Source: Comamonadaceae bacterium ALPHA2B
GTDB lineage: Bacteria > Pseudomonadota > Gammaproteobacteria > Burkholderiales > Burkholderiaceae_C
Assembly: GCA_005503065.1 (NCBI GenBank)
Contig: SCOE01000005.1
Coordinates: 186,001 to 250,000, forward strand
Direction of reading: 5' to 3'
DNA: 64,000 bases
The first letter of the stretch is position 1, and each line of letters begins with the position of its first letter. Positions 33,245 to 45,070 of the stretch are shown piece by piece. The position numbers were made by a program, and so were the translations under genes. The notes beneath the pieces are model-generated. The model had not been told where the DNA came from, made no database searches, and saw only the letters and a list, made by a program, of their open reading frames with translations.

Positions 33245-33590
33245 GCGTGCTTACGTTGCTGCGGCAGCCAGCCGGGCGTATCCATCGCAGCGGTATCGAT
33301 GGTCCATGGACTGGATTGCCACCGGCGCTGCAGCGCATCGACGCCGTCTATAGCATCGAGCAAGAATTTGCGTCGCTCGCGACGAGCGAATGCCTGCAGG
33401 CGCGCGGCGACGAAGCCGGCCGCTCTGGAATACCCTGCATGCTTGGATGTTCGTCGAACGCCGCAGGGTGCCTGATGGTGGCGGCGCGGCCGCAGCGCTC
33501 GACTACAGCCTCAATCGGTGGAAGGCGCTCGGTCCCTTCCTGGAGGACGGCGAGGTGAGCATCGACAACAACCATTGCGAGAACCTTAGG
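33245..33590 (+). mobile_element. IS66-family transposase remnant
   Basis: Contains pieces of two IS66 genes: QPGVSIAAVSMVHGL of the TnpA type (near 33269) and pieces of the large transposase (LQRIDAVYSIEQEFASLA near 33330, ALDYSLNRWKALGPFLEDG and VSIDNNHCENLR up to about 33590). Frames are broken. It is unrelated to the intact IS66-type transposon at 37145. Confidence 0.75.
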
Positions 33591-34210: not shown

Positions 34211-36840
34211 TTGGCAGAGGAACAGACGTTGACGATCCTTCAAGCAATCCATCATTGGTCCCAGGACTTGCCTGCGTGGCAACAAGATGCCGTTCGCCGG
34301 CTCTACCTCGATCGGGAGCTGACGGCTGCCGACCTCGACGATCTCTACGCGATGGCCAAGGCAGTCCACGGCATCGAAGATCCTGAGAAGCGAACGCCAG
34401 CGGGCTTGGCCGCCGCCCAGGTTGCCGCGCCGCCTGTGCCCAATCGGCTTGTCCAGATCACCGCCATCAAGAACTTGCTAAACGTGAACGCGCTGGCCGA
34501 GGGCCAAATCTTGCCGATCAGCGCCACGGGCCTGACCATCATCTACGGGGAGAACGGGACCGGCAAATCTGGCTACTCGCGGGTGCTCAAAAAGGCTTGC
34601 CGGCCCGCGACCAAGCCGAGGCGATCCTGCCCAACGCCCGCAAGCCTCGCGGGCAACTCGCCGCGCCCGAGGCCACCTTCGACGTCATGGTGAACGGCAC
34701 GCCGACACTGCTCGCGTGGAAGGGCGGCGTGACCTCGCCGGAGCAGTTGTCGGAGATCTCGATCTTCGATTCGCACTGCGCCCGCGCATATTTGGACAAC
34801 GACGGCGACTTCGCTTATGTCCCATACGGCCTTGACATCCTCGAAGCCTTGGTCAAAGCATGCGTCGCAGTCAAGCGCATGGCGATCGCGGAGCAAACTG
34901 CCAACAAAGTCAACCTCGAACCGTTCGCCATACTGTCGAAGACGAGCACCAAGACCGGCCGGCTTCTCGCCAGCCTGTCGCCCGTCACGAAGCCCAAAGA
35001 GATCGAGGAGCTGGCGGCCCTGACACCGGAAGACCTCGAACGGCTCGCCATCCTAAACAAGACGCTGGCGGAGGCCGACCCCAAGCAGAAGGCCCAAGCG
35101 CTCCGGCTGCGGGCCAGCCGCTTCAACGGATTGGCCGGCCGGATCGCGTTTGCACTCGCCATCGTGGACGACTCCAAGATCAAGGCGCTGCGGGATCTGG
35201 TGGAGAAGTCCAACCGCGCGAAGCAAGCCGCCGAACTGGCTTCAAAGCAATTCAAGGCGACGCCGGGCTTGTTGCCCGGAACAGGCTCCGAGCCATGGCA
35301 GGAGCTGTTCGAGGCTGCGCGGAAGTTCTCCGCAACCTCCCACGCTGGCCACGCCTTCCTGTCTTTGCCCGAGGATTCCGCTTGCCCGCTGTGCCAGAAG
35401 ACGCTTGGAGCAGATGGCGTCGCCAAGCTGGCGTCGTTCGACGCGTTCATCCAACAGGAGGCGGAGAAAGCCGCCAAGGTGGCGAAGTCGACGGCGGCGG
35501 CGGCCTATCTCGCGATCAAGGACGCGGCGATTGACTTGTCGATCGACGATGCATTGGGCAAAGAACTCGCGGATGCCTTTCCGGAGACCTCCGCATCGTT
35601 CGAGACGTTCCAGAAGGCGATGCGGGAGCGCCGCGCGTCCGCGATGAGCGCCGCTGGCGGCGCCGTTCCATGGGACAACATCGCTGCGCTGCCGGCCGAT
35701 CCAAGCTCCACACTCGTCGACAAAGCCAAGGCACTTGGGATCGAAGCGAAGGCGCTCGAAGACTCCATGGACGCAAAGGCCAAGGCGGCGCAGGTCGCGG
35801 AACAGGCGGAGCTCGACGCCCGGTCGAAGCTCGCGGAGATCAAGGCGACAGCGTTGGAAGCCGTTGAGAAACTGGTCCTGAACTCCAAGCTGCAAGCATG
35901 CGCGGCGGCGATCGTTACCACCGGAATCTCGCAGAAATCCACCCGGCTCTCGAATGAAATGGCGACGCAAGACGTCGCCGACGCGCTGAACGCGGAGCTG
36001 CGCGCCCTGAACGTCCACGAGCTCCAAGTCGTGATGAAGGCTGAGACCGTCGGGGGGAAAGTCCAATACAAGCTGGCGATGCAGCTCCCCGGCGGCGGCA
36101 AGCCCTCGGCAATACTGAGCGAAGGCGAACAGCGGGCCATCGCGATTGCGTCGTTCCTTGCGGAGGTGAAATTGGGCAAGGGCTTGGGTGGCATCGTCTT
36201 CGATGACCCAGTTTCGTCGCTCGACCACCGGCGGAGGTGGCATGTGGCCACCAGGCTAGCCGAAGAGGCGAAGCACCGGCAGGTGATCGTCTTCACGCAC
36301 GACATTTACTTCCTTTGCATCATCCAGCAGGAGGCCGCTCAAGCAGGCTGCGCCGAGTCGACGCAGTGCATCGGAAGAGGCCAAGCCGGTTTCGGCGTCC
36401 AAGCCAGCCGCCTGCCGTTCGACACGCTCAGCACGTCCAAGCGTGTCAGGGCCCTTCGAACCATGTGCGACGAAGTCTTGCGCGTCCACAAGACTGGCGA
36501 CGAGGCCGAAGCGACGCGGCTCAGCCGGGAAGCCTACTCGCACCTTCGGATGGCTTGGGAGCGCGCCGTGGAAGAGGTTTTATTCCAAGGCGTCGTCACG
36601 CGCTTCGCCGAAGGCGTCTCGACCCAGAGGCTCAAAAGCGTGATCGTCGAAGACAGCGACTACGACGCGATCGACGCCGGCATGACCAAGAGTTCCAAGT
36701 TTTCGGGCCACGATCCCGCCAAGCCCGCGCAGCTCGCGACGTTGCATCCCGACGACCTGCGGGCCGACATCGACAAGCTCGAGATGTGGCGCGCCTCCGT
36801 GGAGGCCCGCAAAGCCGTTGTTGAAGCGCGACGGAAGTAG
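34211..36840 (+). pseudogene. Frameshifted SMC/Rad50-like ATPase (RloC-type, likely defence)
   Basis: Two frames together give about 875 residues. The first (34211-about 34605) has Walker A YGENGTGKSGYSRV; the second continues with RDQAEAILPNA. A missing G in CCGGCCCG near 34605 would rejoin them. The rest has long coiled-coil stretches, a zinc-hook-like CPLCQK, signature LSEGEQRAIAIASF, Walker B GIVFDDPVSSLDHRR and H-loop VIVFTHDIYFL. This layout is seen in RloC/PrrC-like and other defence ATPases. It is inactive as read, unless the shift is a sequencing error. TTG is the apparent start. Confidence 0.75.
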
Positions 36841-36966: not shown

Positions 36967-37136
36967 GAGTTTGCTCCGTTCGAGTGACCAGTAAGCGCAG
37001 GACCGGTCGTCCAAGACTTCTTTCCTAATAGGCCGCTTTCAGTGGCGGATTCAACCGGTCGATGCAACACACTAACTGCCGCATAGGCGGAAGGAGTGTT
37101 GCAGATGAAGCGACGGCCACGAATCTACTATTCCGA

Positions 37137-37144
37137 GAACCAGA
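37137..37144. repeat. Left 8-bp target-site duplication of the IS66-type transposon
   Basis: GAACCAGA directly before the left terminal repeat, repeated exactly at 42381-42388. Eight-base duplications are characteristic of the IS66 family. Confidence 0.93.
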
Positions 37145-37221
37145 GTAAGCGTCCCGTGAACCCATCTTGAATCGGCGTTAGGAGCAAAGGATGCTCGTGT
37201 CCACTAAGACTTGGTGGACAC

Positions 37222-37632
37222 GTGAACACTATCTCTCCTCAACACACAGGCGATCGGCGGCGTCGCCGCCTGCACAGCGACGAGTTCAAGGCTAACGCCG
37301 TTGCATTGGCTGCGCAGCCCGGCATGTCGATGGCAGCTGTGGCGATGTCTCTCGGTATCAATGCGAATCTGTTGCGTCGCTGGGTGCGTGACGCGGAGAT
37401 CCAGCCGCGTAGGCCCGAGCCAATTGATGTACCAAAGGAATTGCCTGATGCCACCTCAAGCCAGGCAGTCAGCGGATTCGTGCCTGTGCAGTTGCCCGCG
37501 CCGGCTGAGGCGCCTGCGCCTGCAAGCGACATCCGCATGGAGGTGCGCCGCGGCGCAGTGCACGTCGTGGTGACCTGGCCAGCCGCGCTGGCCAGCGAGT
37601 GTGGTGGCTGGCTGCGAGATCTGCTGCGGTGA
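37222..37632 (+). CDS. tnpA: IS66-family accessory transposition protein TnpA
   Basis: 136 residues with a transposase_8-type helix-turn-helix (KANAVALAAQPGMSMAAVAM then LGINANLLRRWVRDAEI) and a Pro-rich linker. It is required with TnpB for transposition in characterised IS66 elements. GTG start after a near-perfect leader; its end overlaps tnpB by four bases (GTGA), typical of the family's coupled translation. Confidence 0.92.
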   Translation: MNTISPQHTGDRRRRRLHSDEFKANAVALAAQPGMSMAAVAMSLGINANLLRRWVRDAEIQPRRPEPIDVPKELPDATSSQAVSGFVPVQLPAPAEAPAPASDIRMEVRRGAVHVVVTWPAALASECGGWLRDLLR

Positions 37633-37961
37633 TCAAGGTCGAGTCCGTCTGGTTGGCCGTCGAGCCGCTGGACATGCGATCGGGCACCGAAGCTGCGCTG
37701 GCGCGGGTCGTGCACGTCTTCGGTGCCGCCAGACCGCACCACGCCTATCTGTTCGCCAACCGCCGCGCCAACCGGATGAAGGTGCTGGTGCACGACGGCA
37801 TCGGGATCTGGCTGGCAGCCAGACGGCTGCACCAGGGCAAGTTCCTCTGGCCCCATGACGCCGCTCCCACGCTCAGCCTGAGCCGTTCCCAGTTCGACGC
37901 CCTGGTGCTGGGCCTGCCGTGGCAGCGCGTCGGCGAGGCCGGCGTGATCCGGGTGATCTAG
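37629..37961 (+). CDS. tnpB: IS66-family accessory transposition protein TnpB (Orf2)
   Basis: 110 residues of the TnpB_IS66 family: VWLAVEPLDMRSGTEAALARV, then the typical FANRRANRMKVLVHDGIGIW and GKFLWP segments. GTG start overlapping the tnpA stop. It lies 57 bases before tnpC. Confidence 0.93.
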   Translation: MIKVESVWLAVEPLDMRSGTEAALARVVHVFGAARPHHAYLFANRRANRMKVLVHDGIGIWLAARRLHQGKFLWPHDAAPTLSLSRSQFDALVLGLPWQRVGEAGVIRVI

Positions 37962-38018
37962 CGCAATTGCCGAAGTTGCTGATGCTCTCCCGGGTGTCCT
38001 GGGGCATCATCACCTTCC

Positions 38019-39602
38019 GTGAGCGACACGGCCACCAACCTCGACCGCCTGGACGCGCAGCAACTGCGTGAGCTGGTGCAGTCGCTCATGGGCCGAGTGG
38101 CGGCCGGTGAACTGGAGATCGAACGGCGCGACCGCGAGATCGCGTTCAAGCAGGCCACCATCGACAAGCTCACGCACGAGATGGCCGTGCTCAAGCGGTT
38201 GAAGTTCGCCTCGAAGTCGGAATCCTTCTCCACTGAGCAGCGGAATCTGCTGGAAGACACTCTCGACGCGGACCTTGCGGCGATGGAGCTGGAGTTGGAG
38301 CAGCTCACACCGGCCAAGGCTGCACCCCAGGGCAAGCAGCAGCCCAAGCGCCAGGTGCTTCCTTCCCATCTACCGCGTCGCGAGATCCACCACGAGCCTC
38401 AAAACGTAATCTGCACGTGTGGCTGCATGCTCAAACGCATAGGTGAGGACATCGCCGAGAAGCTCGACTACCAGCCCGGCGTGTTCACGGTGGAGCGCCA
38501 CGTCCGCGGCAAATGGGTGTGCAACCGATGCGAGACACTGATCCAGGCGCCGGTGGCACCCCACATCATCGACAAGGGCATCCCGACAGCCGGGCTGCTT
38601 GCGCAAGTGCTGGTGGCGAAGTACCTTGATCACCTGCCGCTGTACAGGCAGGAAGCCATCTTCGGCCGAGCGGGCCTCGCCATCCCTCGCTCGACGCTGG
38701 CCGCTTGGGTGGGCCAGTGCGGCGTTCACCTGCAGCCGCTGGTGGATGCGCTCAGGAGCGAGATGCGTCGCAGTCAAGTGCTCCATGCGGACGAGACCCC
38801 CGTGGCCATGCTCAAGCCCGGCCACGGCAAGACGCACCGGGCGTACCTCTGGAGCTACTGCACGACGGCCTACGACGCACTGTCCGCAGTGGTGTTCGAC
38901 TTCGCCGACAGCCGCGGCGGGCAGCATGCCCGGGCCTTCCTTGGGCTTGGCGGCGAGAACGGCTGGCGCGGCACCCTGGTGTGCGATGACTTCTCGGGCT
39001 ACAAGGCCTGCTTCGAGCTCGGTGTCACCGAGGCCGGCTGCTTGGCGCACGCCAGGCGCAAGTTCCATGAGCTGTGGGCCAACCACGGCAGCCCGATCGG
39101 TGAGCAGGCCTTGAAGTTCTTCGGCGAGCTCTACGAGGTTGAACGGGTCGTGGCCGAGCTGGGACCAGAAGACCGCCGGCGCGTGCGCCAGGAGCGCTCA
39201 CGGAAGGTGGCCGATGCGCTCCATCAATGGCTCACCGCGCAGCGGCAGAAGGTGCCCGAGGGCTCGGCGACCGCCAAGGCCATCGACTACAGCCTGAAGC
39301 GCTGGCTGGCGCTCACGCGCTACATCGATGACGCTGATTTACCGGCTGACAACAATCGGGTGGAGAACCAAATCCGACCGATCGCGCTGGGACGTTCCAA
39401 CTGGCTCTTCGCCGGTAGCCTGCGAGCGGGCAAACGTGCCGCAGCCATCATGAGTCTCGTGCACTCGGCGCGCCTGAACGGCCACGAGCCGCACGCGTAC
39501 CTGAAGGATGTCCTTGAGCGCTTGCCCACCCATCCGGCCAGACGCATCACTGATCTGCTGCCGCATCGATGGACGCCAGATAGCCGAAGACCGGACACAT
39601 AG
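38019..39602 (+). CDS. tnpC: IS66-family transposase TnpC
   Basis: 527 residues. It has an N-terminal coiled coil (about 15-95), a zinc-binding CTCGCMLKRIG and CNRCE region (about 125-175), and a DDE catalytic core with Asp in LHADETPVAML, Asp in VCDDFSGYKA and Glu in NNRVENQIRPI. The C-terminal tail (EPHAYLKDVLERLPTHP) is intact. GTG start. Full length and motifs intact, so the transposon looks competent. Confidence 0.95.
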   Translation: MSDTATNLDRLDAQQLRELVQSLMGRVAAGELEIERRDREIAFKQATIDKLTHEMAVLKRLKFASKSESFSTEQRNLLEDTLDADLAAMELELEQLTPAKAAPQGKQQPKRQVLPSHLPRREIHHEPQNVICTCGCMLKRIGEDIAEKLDYQPGVFTVERHVRGKWVCNRCETLIQAPVAPHIIDKGIPTAGLLAQVLVAKYLDHLPLYRQEAIFGRAGLAIPRSTLAAWVGQCGVHLQPLVDALRSEMRRSQVLHADETPVAMLKPGHGKTHRAYLWSYCTTAYDALSAVVFDFADSRGGQHARAFLGLGGENGWRGTLVCDDFSGYKACFELGVTEAGCLAHARRKFHELWANHGSPIGEQALKFFGELYEVERVVAELGPEDRRRVRQERSRKVADALHQWLTAQRQKVPEGSATAKAIDYSLKRWLALTRYIDDADLPADNNRVENQIRPIALGRSNWLFAGSLRAGKRAAAIMSLVHSARLNGHEPHAYLKDVLERLPTHPARRITDLLPHRWTPDSRRPDT

Positions 39603-39647
39603 CCGTCAACATGGAACTGCCAGCAACGAGACGCCAAGCCTTGTCCG

Positions 39648-41732
39648 TCAGAACGTCCAGCGTGCACTCACCCTGGCGCTGCGCGGCTCCATCGGATGGA
39701 CGTGCTTGCCGTCGATGCCGCTGCCACAGTCGCCACGCGCCACCTCGCCTGCGCTGCAAGAGGCATAGTAGTACTCGATGTCGTTGCCCTTCCGGCCGGC
39801 CAGGTTGAACACGTCGAGGCCGAGCGTCAGGTGCTTGTTCACGGCGTAGCGCGCACCGAAGTTCAGCAGCGTGGTCGAGCGTGATCGCACGCTATTGAGC
39901 GTGTCGAGTGCGCGCGGCCCCATGTACCGAAGGCGCAGCGACGCCGTCAACGGGCCGTCCGTATAGGTCACACCCGCCGCGAAAACCCGTTCCACCGCGT
40001 TGTCGATGTAGTTGCCTTCGCCCTCGGGCGCCACGCCCCGAAACCGCGCACGCGAGAGCGCTGCGTCCGCTTCAAGCCGCCAGCGCGAATCGACCTTCCA
40101 ACGCATCGTCGCCTCGATGCCTCTGCGGCTGCTGGCGCGGCCGGGCTCGGTGGTGCCTGCATCACCGACGTAAACCAGCTCGGAGTCGAGCCTGAGCTGC
40201 CACAGGGCGGTGGTGAAGGTGAAGTTCTCGTTGGGCTGGAAACGCCAGCCGATCTCGGCGCCGCGCCCCTTCACGAGCGCAGGCACCCGATCCGCCGGCA
40301 GGCCGCTTTGCGGATCGACGCTGATGGTGGCGCCGCGCACGTCGTTGCTGTGAAAGCCCACGCCCGCGTTCAGATACAGCTCATGGGCCGGCGTCACGGT
40401 GAAGGCCAGCCCGGCCTTCGGGCTGGAGAGCGAGTCATGGCCACGGCCGCTGTTGACCGGCCCATAGACCGGCTCGCGCCCGTCGACCTGGTAGCGCAGC
40501 ATATCCCCGCGCAGGCCCACGTAGCCGCGCCAGCGCACGCTGAAGTTGACCAACTGCTGCCCGTAGACCGAGAACAGATCCTGCGATACCTTGTCGTTGC
40601 GCACGGTGGAGATGCGCTCCCTCGCCACGGTGTTGTACAGCCCGACCTCGCCGATGCGGTCACCGCGCCACTGGGCGCCGAAGCTCAGGATGCCGTCAAG
40701 CCCGGCAATCTTGTTCGGCCGGCTGTGCGAGGCCTGCGCGCCGAAAACCTTGCGGCGGTCGGTCTGTTCGAACTGGTCACCCAGCTCGGGGTTGTTCAGA
40801 AAGTAGGTGAAGTCCGAGAACAGGTCGAAGCGGTAGTCGATGGCGTAGGCGCTGATCTGGGTCTGGCCTTCGGGGCTGTTGTCGAACCACTTCCCCGACA
40901 GGCTGATGCGCCGTGTCTTGCCGCCATCGGTGGTGTTCATCGAGCCGAAGCGCGACAGCTCGCCGCTGTCGACCAGACGCTCGGGGATCTGGTCGGTCGA
41001 GTTCCAGCGGCTCTGGTAGGCCATGCCGGTGATCGTGAAGCCGCGCGCCTGGGAGCCCTGCGAATAGCGCAGCACCGCATTGGCCTTGCGCAAGCGTTCG
41101 GGTGTGTCCCACGGGCCGTTGTTGCCTTCCAACTCGACGGCGCCAAGCCAGGTCTGATCCTGCACGGTGCGCGAACCGGCCGCGAGCAGGCGGCGGAAGT
41201 TGTTGGCGCCCAGCGTGACTTCGGCGAAGGGGGCGTCGAGCGCACTCACATAGTCGAGCGAAGCGCTCCCGGCCAGCGAGAAGTCGCCTGAATCCGCAAA
41301 ATACGGCCCCTTGCGATAGCGCACGCCCGAGACAAGATCGGGGATCAGGAAGTTCAGGTCGGCGAAGCCCTGGCCATGGCCGTGCGTGGGCATGTTGACC
41401 GGCATCCCGTCGACCGTCACGGCAAAGTCGGTGCCGTGGTCGAGATTGAAGCCACGCAGGAAGTACTGGTTGGCCTTGCCATCGCCAGAATGCTGCGTGG
41501 CCACAACGCCAGGCACGGCTTCGACGATGTCCCCCGGTCGCAGCTTGGGGCGCGCCTGGAACGACCCCTTCTCTGCCGCTCCTTCGCTGGCGCTGTCGGC
41601 CGAGCCGATGGTGGCGTCGCGCGGCCCCCGGACCTCCACCTCGGGAAGGTGCCCTTCCTGTGCCCAGGCAGGGGCGCTGGTGAGCAGGGCCGTCATGAAC
41701 AGGCCCGGGGAGCGTCGGAGGATGGCGCGCAC
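39648..41732 (-). CDS. TonB-dependent outer-membrane receptor (probable nickel/metallophore uptake)
   Basis: 694 residues: a signal peptide ending PAWAQ, a plug domain (VEAVPGVVATQHSGDGKANQ, then YFLRGFNLDHGTDF), and a 22-strand-type barrel ending ARWTF with terminal Phe. The region before the end is His/Cys-rich (YYYASC, DGKHVHPMEPRS). A NikR-type operator lies 14 bases upstream and nikR is the next gene, so nickel-controlled uptake of Ni(II) or a nickel chelate is the likely role. It is cargo of the surrounding IS66-type transposon and converges with tnpC. Confidence 0.9.
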   Translation of the reverse strand: MRAILRRSPGLFMTALLTSAPAWAQEGHLPEVEVRGPRDATIGSADSASEGAAEKGSFQARPKLRPGDIVEAVPGVVATQHSGDGKANQYFLRGFNLDHGTDFAVTVDGMPVNMPTHGHGQGFADLNFLIPDLVSGVRYRKGPYFADSGDFSLAGSASLDYVSALDAPFAEVTLGANNFRRLLAAGSRTVQDQTWLGAVELEGNNGPWDTPERLRKANAVLRYSQGSQARGFTITGMAYQSRWNSTDQIPERLVDSGELSRFGSMNTTDGGKTRRISLSGKWFDNSPEGQTQISAYAIDYRFDLFSDFTYFLNNPELGDQFEQTDRRKVFGAQASHSRPNKIAGLDGILSFGAQWRGDRIGEVGLYNTVARERISTVRNDKVSQDLFSVYGQQLVNFSVRWRGYVGLRGDMLRYQVDGREPVYGPVNSGRGHDSLSSPKAGLAFTVTPAHELYLNAGVGFHSNDVRGATISVDPQSGLPADRVPALVKGRGAEIGWRFQPNENFTFTTALWQLRLDSELVYVGDAGTTEPGRASSRRGIEATMRWKVDSRWRLEADAALSRARFRGVAPEGEGNYIDNAVERVFAAGVTYTDGPLTASLRLRYMGPRALDTLNSVRSRSTTLLNFGARYAVNKHLTLGLDVFNLAGRKGNDIEYYYASCSAGEVARGDCGSGIDGKHVHPMEPRSARVSARWTF

Positions 41733-41745
41733 GAGGAATCCCTCT

Positions 41746-41780
41746 TGTTGTATGAGAAATCAGCAATTATTCATACAACA
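41746..41780. promoter_or_regulatory. NikR operator-like palindrome before the receptor gene
   Basis: Perfect 10-base arms TGTTGTATGA and TCATACAACA with a 15-base spacer. The known E. coli NikR operator is GTATGA-N16-TCATAC, so this has the same half-sites with a spacer one base shorter. It lies 14 bases upstream of the receptor start and would block its promoter when nickel-loaded NikR binds. Confidence 0.88.
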
Positions 41781-41820
41781 GGGCGGCCGGGACATACGCC
41801 AATCGGCGCAGGCAGCGGTC

Positions 41821-42291
41821 TCAGTTCATCGGCTTGAAGTGGCGGTGCGGCTTGCTCTTGCCATGGGAATGTTGCTCGCCGACATCCAGCGGCACGAGGT
41901 GCACGTTGCCGTGGCGCACGCCGCGCAGCGCGACCAGTTGCTCGGCGCAGGCCTTCACGGCGTCGACGGGGCCTCGCAGCACCACCGTCTCGAGGCAATG
42001 GTCGTGGTCGAGGTGCGTGTGGAGGCTGGTGATCACCAGGTCGTGGTGATCGTGCTGCAGATCCATCACGCGGGCGGTGACGGTGTGCTCGTGGTGATCG
42101 TAGACGTAGCTGACGTTCGCGACGCACCAGGCCGCGGCGCCCTTGGAGGGCTGGTCGAGCGTGGCGCTGCCCAAGCGTGAGCGGATCAGATCGCGCACGG
42201 CTTCGGAGCGGTTGCCGTATCCCTTGGCGGCGATGAACTCGTCAAACTGCTGGGCGAGTTCGTCGTCGAGGGAGATGGTGAAGCGTTCCAT
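41821..42291 (-). CDS. nikR: Nickel-responsive regulator NikR
   Basis: 156 residues. The N-terminal ribbon-helix-helix MERFTISLDDELAQQFDEFI then YGNRSEAVRDLIR binds DNA; the C-terminal ACT-type domain carries the nickel ligands corresponding to E. coli H76, H87, H89 and C95 (here about H80, H91, H93, C99 in HTHLDHDHC). A His-rich tail is also present. The start was set at MERF. Just upstream of the receptor in the same direction, with the operator between them. Confidence 0.95.
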   Translation of the reverse strand: MERFTISLDDELAQQFDEFIAAKGYGNRSEAVRDLIRSRLGSATLDQPSKGAAAWCVANVSYVYDHHEHTVTARVMDLQHDHHDLVITSLHTHLDHDHCLETVVLRGPVDAVKACAEQLVALRGVRHGNVHLVPLDVGEQHSHGKSKPHRHFKPMN

Positions 42292-42380
42292 GGCTGCGGT
42301 TCCTTTGCGCGCCAGCATGATAGAGGTCCAAATACGCCCGCCCAACTCTAGAAATCAAGGTGTGTTCGCCAGACGCTTAC

Positions 42381-42388
42381 GAACCAGA
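42381..42388. repeat. Right 8-bp target-site duplication of the IS66-type transposon
   Basis: GAACCAGA directly after the right terminal repeat ending GACGCTTAC; identical to the left copy at 37137-37144. After it the IS30 transposase frame resumes. Confidence 0.93.
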
Positions 42389-43560
42389 GGGCGCAGATGT
42401 GGGAGCGCTGGAAGGAAGGTTGGACGCTGCATGAGATCGGCAAGCTCTTCGATCGACCGCACACCTCGATCCACCAGATCCTCGCCCCAACTGGTGGCAT
42501 TCGACCCGCGCAGCGACGTCGTGGAGCTTCAGCGCTGACTTTGGTAGAGCGCGCGGAGATATCGCGCTCGATCGTGGCTGGTGCGTCGATCCGATCCATT
42601 GCAGCGCACCTCGGACGGGCGCCCTCGACGATCAGTCGAGAGATCAAACGCAATGGCGGCCGCGGCGCCTTTCGCGCGAGCCGGGCTGAGGCGGCCGCAT
42701 GGGAGCGGACCCGTCGGCCGAAGCGGTGCAAGTTGACGCACAGCCGCACACTGGCTCGTATCGTGGCCCAGAAGCTTAGGATGCTCTGGTCGCCCGAGCA
42801 GATTGCCGGTTGGCTCAAACAGACTTACCCGGGCGACCAGAGCCATCACGTGTCACACGAGACCATCTACCGCAGCCTCTTCATTCAAGCGCGTGGCGCC
42901 TTGAAGAAGGAACCGCTGGAGCATCTCAGGCGTACTCGCGGCATGAGGCGTTCACGGCACCACACGCAGAAGACCGCGACTCACGGTCAGATTGTCGACG
43001 CCGTTTCGATCAGCGAGCGGCCCGCTAGTGTCGAGGACCGGGCGGTTCCGGGACACTGGGAAGGCGATCTGGTGTTTGGCAGCCACAACAGCCAGATCGC
43101 GACGCTGGTGGAGCGCCAGACACGCTACGTGATGCTGGTCAAGGTGGCCGGCAAGGACACAGAGACTGTGGTCAATGCGTTGATCAAGCACGCGCAGAAG
43201 CTGCCGCAGGAGCTATACAAGTCGTTGACCTGGGATCGTGGCAAAGAGCTCGCGGCTCACAAGCAATTCACCTTGGCCACCGACATCCAGGTTTACTTCT
43301 GTGACCCGAGGAGCCCCTGGCAGCGTGGCAGCAACGAGAACACCAATGGGCTGCTCAGGCAGTACCTGCCCAAGGGTGTGGATGTCTCAGAGCTCTCGCA
43401 GATCAAGCTCAATGCCATTGCGAGACAATTGAACGAGCGGCCAAGGAAGACGTTGGGCTTCCAGACACCGGCTGAGATGTTCAATCAATGTGTTGCATCG
43501 ACCGGTTGAATCCGCCGTCTGAAGCAGACACTCGGAACAAGCGGATGCCCGTCCATGAGA

Positions 43561-44569: not shown

Positions 44570-45070
44570 ATGACGAATATTGCATCCGCCCTCAAGGCTG
44601 AGATCTCGCGCGTTGCGCGCAAGGAGGTTCGCAGCGAGATCGAAGGTCTCAGAAAAACTTCCGCTCAGCAGCGTGCCGCTATCGCGCAGCTTCGCCGCGA
44701 GCTCGCCGAGTTGCAGAAGGCACTCAATGATGGCCGTCGCTTGGCAGCTGCTCAAGCTCGCGCGGCGGCCAGAGCCCGACCGATGTCTTCTCCGGCGGCC
44801 ATTGAACGGCTCCAGGACGATGGAACGCCCAGGCGGTTCAGTGCGGCGCGCCTTGAAGCGCATCGCAAGAAGCTTGGACTCTCTGCGGCTGACTACGGCA
44901 AACTAGTCGACATCAGTGGCGCCACGATCTACAACTGGGAGCAAGGCAAGTCACGGCCCTCGCCAGAGCAGGTCCAAGCGCTGGGCCTTGTGAAGCTCAT
45001 GAGTCCAACGGCCTTGAAGGCACGCGTGGTCGAGCTCGCGCAGGGCAAATCGGACGTAGCGAGAGGCTAG
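44570..45070 (+). CDS. XRE-type regulator with N-terminal coiled coil
   Basis: 166 residues. A charged helix (about 5-55, ALKAEISRVARKEVRSEIEG then LRRELAELQKALNDG) probably dimerises the protein. A helix-turn-helix (about 103-150, RKKLGLSAADYGKLVDISG then ATIYNWEQGKSRPSPEQV) follows. It is divergent from the TIGR02391 gene, so it may control it. Similar coiled-coil XRE proteins are common in island regulators. Confidence 0.8.
   Translation: MTNIASALKAEISRVARKEVRSEIEGLRKTSAQQRAAIAQLRRELAELQKALNDGRRLAAAQARAAARARPMSSPAAIERLQDDGTPRRFSAARLEAHRKKLGLSAADYGKLVDISGATIYNWEQGKSRPSPEQVQALGLVKLMSPTALKARVVELAQGKSDVARG

Follow-up and report, generated by a model that had tools for sequence, protein, structure and literature searches.

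Is the nikR gene at this locus, with the TonB-dependent receptor gene beside it, an ordinary neighbour of a set of IS66 transposition genes or the cargo of a complete mobile element? The window analyzed here is a 64,000-nucleotide stretch of Comamonadaceae bacterium ALPHA2B (contig SCOE01000005.1, positions 186,001 to 250,000), part of contig C55 in a 6.0-Mb genome of 91 contigs, and coordinates refer to the window unless another locus is named. It contains an IS66-family element of 5236 bp at 37145–42380. We consider it likely that this is a complete passenger-bearing IS66 element (tIS66) with a nikR-receptor cassette between tnpC and the right end, that the unit inserted whole, and that its receptor serves nickel under NikR control.

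IS66 elements are bounded by terminal inverted repeats of about 20–30 bp that start with GTAA. The ends found here are imperfect 26-bp repeats that start in this way (left, 37145–37170, plus strand; right, 42355–42380, minus strand; 21/26 positions identical) and resemble the ends of cargo-free relatives. They are flanked by an exact target-site duplication (TSD) of the 8 bp expected of the family, GAACCAGA, at 37137–37144 and 42381–42388 (8/8 match). When IS66-free loci supplied 300 pairs of decoy arms for an end search of identical kind, no net score was above 14; the window scores 21. These results uphold the claim of an earlier reading made from the DNA letters (hereafter, the sequence-only reading) that a complete element occupies 37145–42380. 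That reading had named a chance 8-bp match as what would undo it, and the TSD and repeats lie far beyond all 300 decoys. The decoys rule out a chance duplication around ordinary neighbouring genes with no element present, an explanation that we credit with practically no probability and that is also contradicted by the interruption of an IS30 frame at the insertion point. The right-end sequence common to the element and five relatives (the Variovorax sp. RA8 IS66 described below and four others) amounts to about the 26-bp repeat only. Other, non-IS sequence starts directly inside it, and at the other border 45 bp separate the tnpC stop from the end of the receptor gene. In a simple test, the two cargo borders have no exact repeat in common that exceeds 8 bp, which gives no sign of a second pair of ends there.

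The target is an IS30-family transposase gene, whose 5′ end lies at 37106–37144 and whose remainder lies at 42389–43509 (both plus strand). When the element and one copy of the duplication are excised in silico, MKRRPRIYYSENQ and RAQMWERW become contiguous in a single open frame, the right part of which matches NF033563 (E 5e-88). The sequence-only reading had suggested a search for empty sites. An exact one was not found in the genus, where there is no close IS30 copy (best match 70% over 442 bp, plus a 70-bp stretch at 90%), and we therefore used plasmid homologues for the comparison. Three of these (two from Variovorax, one from Janthinobacterium; 72–78% identical) align uninterrupted across the insertion point with the element absent, one of them with a compensating pair of one-base gaps near that point. 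A perfect 28-bp inverted match between 37044–37071 and 43489–43516 probably marks the ends of the interrupted IS30 copy. Together with the interrupted frame, it places the IS66 element within an IS30 element.

The left part of the element carries tnpA, tnpB and a DDE tnpC of IS66 type, in that order and all on the plus strand. The accessory gene tnpA (37222–37632, GTG start) matches HTH_Tnp_1 (E 5e-12), and its end is overlapped by the second accessory gene, tnpB (37629–37961; TnpB_IS66, E 5e-27). The transposase gene tnpC (38019–39602) is a 527-aa open frame matching DDE_Tnp_IS66 (E 5e-98), and its product contains ADETP, DDFSGY and NNRVENQIRP, which we take to be the catalytic motifs. TnpC and TnpB score above their NCBIfam cut-offs; TnpA is slightly below its own (NF047595, 70.7 vs 74 bits), though above that of Pfam.

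The non-transposition genes within the ends are what make the element a tIS66, and all five of its genes are open frames recognized by Pfam. The receptor gene (39648–41732, minus strand, 694-aa open frame) encodes a plug domain and a β-barrel, as judged from Pfam and from a predicted structure (mean pLDDT 85.6, pTM 0.86, 26-sequence alignment). Searching the PDB with this model returned 323 matches at E ≤ 0.001, and the best 50 of the 323 are all TonB receptors, with PqqU first (9c4o, 17% identity, E 1.7e-37) and OprC, a copper receptor, at rank 33. Residues H117 and H119, in a PTHGHGQG stretch, are invariant across the 26 aligned sequences, and we would guess at a metal role for them. The second gene, nikR (41821–42291, minus strand), encodes a nickel-responsive repressor of 156 aa from its ATG, or 174 aa from a TTG at 42345, identified by Pfam, NCBIfam and alignment. 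The protein has the ribbon-helix-helix and NikR_C domains with a His/His/His/Cys nickel site, and aligns to E. coli NikR (1q5v, E 4e-32) over residues 1–135. It retains the residues aligned to H76, H87, H89 and C95, which, in the E. coli numbering as we take it, are presumably the nickel ligands. Two equivalog models and one subfamily model of NCBIfam were passed; the protein is below the cut-off for TIGR02793 (138.8 vs 175.45) and fails PRK00630. Compared with Pseudacidovorax intermedius NS331, the receptor gene has 73, 35 and 261 differences at codon positions 1, 2 and 3, and nikR has 11, 9 and 51. This concentration at third positions is the pattern expected of genes kept working.

Between the two genes, and ahead of the receptor, a sequence pattern at 41748–41778 (TTGTATGA-N15-TCATACAA) marks a NikR-type operator, in which GTATGA and TCATAC half-sites 15 bp apart form a 27-bp inverted repeat. 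The 16-bp gap between these half-sites expected from E. coli was not found here, nor in relatives, where the spacer is likewise 15. The published NikR signal is a 27–28 bp inverted repeat, with the form GTATGAT-N13/14-ATCATAC in enterobacteria (PMC545781). When 11 spacings were allowed and the best site was taken from each of 87 receptor-locus rows (which include some loci twice), 25 sites scored at least 12/16; their spacer is 15 in 22 cases, 11 in two and 14 in one. A spacer-15 site occurs at 8/11 loci with nikR directly upstream versus 9/70 without it (81 of 82 loci, L091 being dropped for its short upstream sequence; Fisher p 9e-5, a guide only, as the loci are related). According to the sequence-only reading, the IS66 ends enclose nikR, a NikR-type operator and a TonB-dependent receptor; the domain matches and the operator bear this out.

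These features suggest that NikR represses the receptor at the predicted operator in a nickel-dependent manner. Nickel-bound NikR would occupy the 27-bp operator and silence the receptor gene; under nickel shortage, this repression would lift and the receptor would take a nickel complex across the outer membrane via the TonB of the host. In the 6-Mb host genome, TGTATGA-N15-TCATACA has two perfect copies, one in the element and one upstream of the other nikR-linked receptor of the host. Two further sites have two mismatches, compared with one for the reversed control. Each nikR-receptor unit of the host has one of its two NikR_C genes, so each repressor can probably act on both receptors. Similar helix-turn-helix proteins, their likeness judged by eye, lie near both units: at 44570–45070, to the right of the IS30 copy, and at L156:13245–13673, next to the chromosomal nikR.

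The "self-regulated nickel-uptake unit" of the sequence-only reading is accurate as to the presence of receptor and repressor and too broad as to uptake. No inner-membrane permease is carried, so the cargo is one regulated outer-membrane step and not a whole uptake system; TonB/ExbBD and the permease must come from the host.

That the receptor serves nickel is suggested by NikR and by neighbouring genes at related loci. Of the 83 plasmid records that gave a match, four were hand-picked and their neighbourhoods inspected. Plasmid p1 of Paraburkholderia acidisoli has a 44% homologue of the receptor placed downstream of a gene for a HoxN-type nickel transporter, and a divergent nikR stands in front. 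In the case of Cupriavidus necator pHG1, the distance between hoxN and a 46% homologue is 4.4 kb, and hoxN itself comes after regulatory NiFe hydrogenase genes. The remaining two are considered below. Urease is present in the host. A published precedent is FrpB4 of Helicobacter pylori (PMC3856676), which like the cargo receptor is a TonB-dependent outer-membrane protein; it is a nickel receptor repressed by NikR with nickel. In the element, repressor and receptor genes lie side by side between the IS66 ends. We know of no insertion sequence that carries the gene for FrpB4, though no search aimed at one was made.

Several observations weigh against our reading of the locus. The ends of the element match at only 21 of 26 positions. 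No sigma-70-like consensus promoter for nikR or the receptor was found in 41600–42450, and the expression of nikR there, within the right end, is for this reason putative. Three of the 11 receptors with an adjacent nikR are without the operator. The nearest solved folds of the receptor are PqqU and siderophore receptors. Around the Indioceanicola homologue, no nickel gene is annotated within 5 kb, and the homologue on Methylorubrum pCMU01 lies near cobalamin genes, so substrates may vary across the wider receptor family. No NiFe hydrogenase match was found in the host genome. Other copies with the same cargo, which the sequence-only reading had proposed to look for, did not turn up in 14 other genomes of the genus, in 72,556 plasmid records, or among the matches listed for two samples of the family that overlap, with 299 and 399 genomes (two to three best candidates scored per genome, with receptor-TnpC adjacency compared by eye on the listed rows).

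Some of these points bear on whether the element is as described but its receptor imports cobalt, a corrinoid or a metallophore complex instead of nickel. Sequence does not reveal the substrate of a TonB receptor, the solved folds among the best 50 of the 323 matches have 12–17% identity, sequence comparison points to BtuB, and one homologue has the cobalamin neighbourhood noted above. We nevertheless hold a substrate other than nickel to be unlikely, given the upstream operator and adjacent nikR in related loci, the two hoxN-linked homologues, and the precedent of a NikR-repressed nickel receptor in H. pylori (PMC3856676).

Where did the cargo come from? In a 48-row tree, the cargo receptor falls in a set of seven (support 98/93) with Variovorax WS11, P. 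intermedius NS331, Pseudacidovorax sp. NFM-22, two more Pseudacidovorax assemblies and a long-branched row, G283. The receptor of the host's own chromosome (G000:C1:107226–109263; nikR 2.4 kb away) belongs to a different supported set (99/95), which rules out that the cargo was copied from there; the host thus has a resident unit and a unit of different origin. The nikR-receptor pairs of NS331 and NFM-22 are like the cargo in sequence (NikR 88–90%, receptor 89%), in gene order and in the operator between the genes, and differ in that no IS66 genes were found in their 6-kb flanks. IS66 genes were likewise absent from the flanks of all 80 receptor loci fetched by protein search (80/80; up to 6 kb, often less). 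The sequence-only reading would have been undone by receptor and nikR at this same position without the element ends, and no such locus was found. For the transposition genes, the closest relative among delimited elements is an IS66 on plasmid 3 of Variovorax sp. RA8 (L007; TnpC 86%, TnpB 93%), which has ends of the same type and its own 8-bp TSD, GGAGCAAC. It differs from the element in being 2494 bp long and cargo-free, with TnpA only 64% identical. Matching ends and own 8-bp duplications are shared by other cargo-free relatives of this kind.

From these relationships, we propose that a nikR-receptor cassette was captured from a relative in the Pseudacidovorax/Variovorax group and came to occupy the stretch that separates tnpC from the right end. 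TnpC, with TnpA and TnpB, would then have acted on the 26-bp ends, inserted the whole 5.2-kb unit into the IS30 transposase gene and made the 8-bp duplications. Movement of the unit together with its cargo is what we infer from the ends and TSD. With these the "transfer in one hop" of the sequence-only reading is consistent, as an inferred step; a second copy with the cargo, which would have spoken for it directly, is the part that failed to appear.

A different order of events would have a bare IS66 enter the IS30 gene first, with nikR and the receptor added later between tnpC and the right end, so that the unit never moved with its cargo. One copy is known and the TSD is silent on the order of events, both of which this sequence of steps accommodates. 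It fits less well with the cargo borders, which share no exact repeat longer than 8 bp and show no apparent second end pair in the simple test, or with a survey of other IS66 elements, and we judge it quite improbable. The survey covered 100 fetched stretches, mostly around IS66 TnpC matches and mainly the best-scoring rows, hence non-random, with some receptor loci; with the window and L007 this makes 102 loci, 90 of which gave 97 TnpC matches. Ends were not resolved for 46 matches (including elements with a left arm longer than 1.6 kb, such as L147, L167, L174 and L187), 35 were bare, and 16 had more than 150 bp between the tnpC stop and the right end. Leaving out the window itself and L197, whose extra DNA is a second, nested IS66, 14 of the 50 other delimited matches carry extra DNA at this identical place. 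Two of the 14, L168 and L169, are one element type, with an SMR multidrug protein as the Pfam-recognized passenger of L168. This element lies at two sites of one genome with different duplications, GTTGCTCT and ACTGCGCA, and its copies are 94.4% identical in the transposase part and 95.9% in the cargo part. Passengers therefore do travel with such elements.

Passengers were examined in 11 of the 14, all but L248, L249 and L265. Pfam recognized a TonB-C-like protein in L177, a Crp-type regulator in L178, PRiA4_ORF3 in L181 and the passengers of L157 described below, and gave no match for the extra open reading frames of L150, L170 and L172, or of L175, which is below the 150-bp threshold. Metal-handling passengers other than nikR-receptor occur in two: L179 (G187:C77; 4066 bp) has a divergent MerR regulator and HMA-tagged cation-efflux protein, and L176 (G386:C3; 5244 bp) has metal-type cargo comprising HupE/UreJ_2, DUF6488 and a His-rich EamA transporter. 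It is possible, though we would not call it probable, that Burkholderiales regularly use tIS66 elements to exchange small metal-handling cassettes that bring their own regulation, each loaded at this one place, after tnpC and before the right end. A receptor arriving in this way might then be tame from the outset, because the travelling and the resident NikR can both read its operator.

The element type is already known, and novelty is confined to the cargo. PMC12888890 names tIS66 as a kind, with passengers in 7/25 Pseudomonas IS66 entries of ISfinder, and describes ISPa75, a tIS66 that carries fosZ downstream of tnpC. As described there, ISPa75 shares with the present element the IS66 tnpA-B-C genes, the passenger position, 8-bp duplications and GTAA-type ends, and its fosZ is thought to have been captured from a related species, akin to the origin proposed here. 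A promoter is predicted in ISPa75 between the right end and the passenger gene. ISPa75 differs in carrying one antibiotic-resistance gene on 2,996 bp in 159 strains; the present element has a two-gene regulated metal cassette on 5,236 bp in one copy. PMC3129680 names 'transporter ISs', and PMC7371123 describes Tn3-type passengers. We found no report of an IS66 with nikR or a TonB receptor in open-access papers, the literature covered here (subscription papers and ISfinder lay outside this scope). The view that passenger IS66 elements are known in concept and this cargo undescribed agrees with the literature covered. The locus presents an insertion sequence that carries a nutrient-uptake gene and apparently its own switch, instead of a resistance gene. 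Should units of this kind be mobile, environmental bacteria could pass outer-membrane nickel uptake to one another in regulated form, and the element is a well-defined case in which to ask how cargo is loaded beside one end of an IS66.

Further IS66 sequences were observed in the host and its relatives. The host has a second tIS66 of a distant type, L157 (G000:C29:6000–24000), which is 6379 bp long, with ends that match at 26/26 positions and the duplication GAGCAGGA; its passengers are DUF3597, a protein with a weak match to a holin, and unknown proteins. In a sibling species, G304:C47:8439–8892 (L146) matches the first 460 bp of the element at 89% identity, and is followed by the end of another IS66 type, 26 bp of which are identical to the end of L157. 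A few kb to the left of the element, 33378–33584 holds a fragment of a different IS66 DDE transposase domain (Pfam model positions 193–261). Beside the IS30/IS66 nest, 34597–36840 contains a gene for an AAA_13-type ATPase, for which a role in defence or repair would be a guess.

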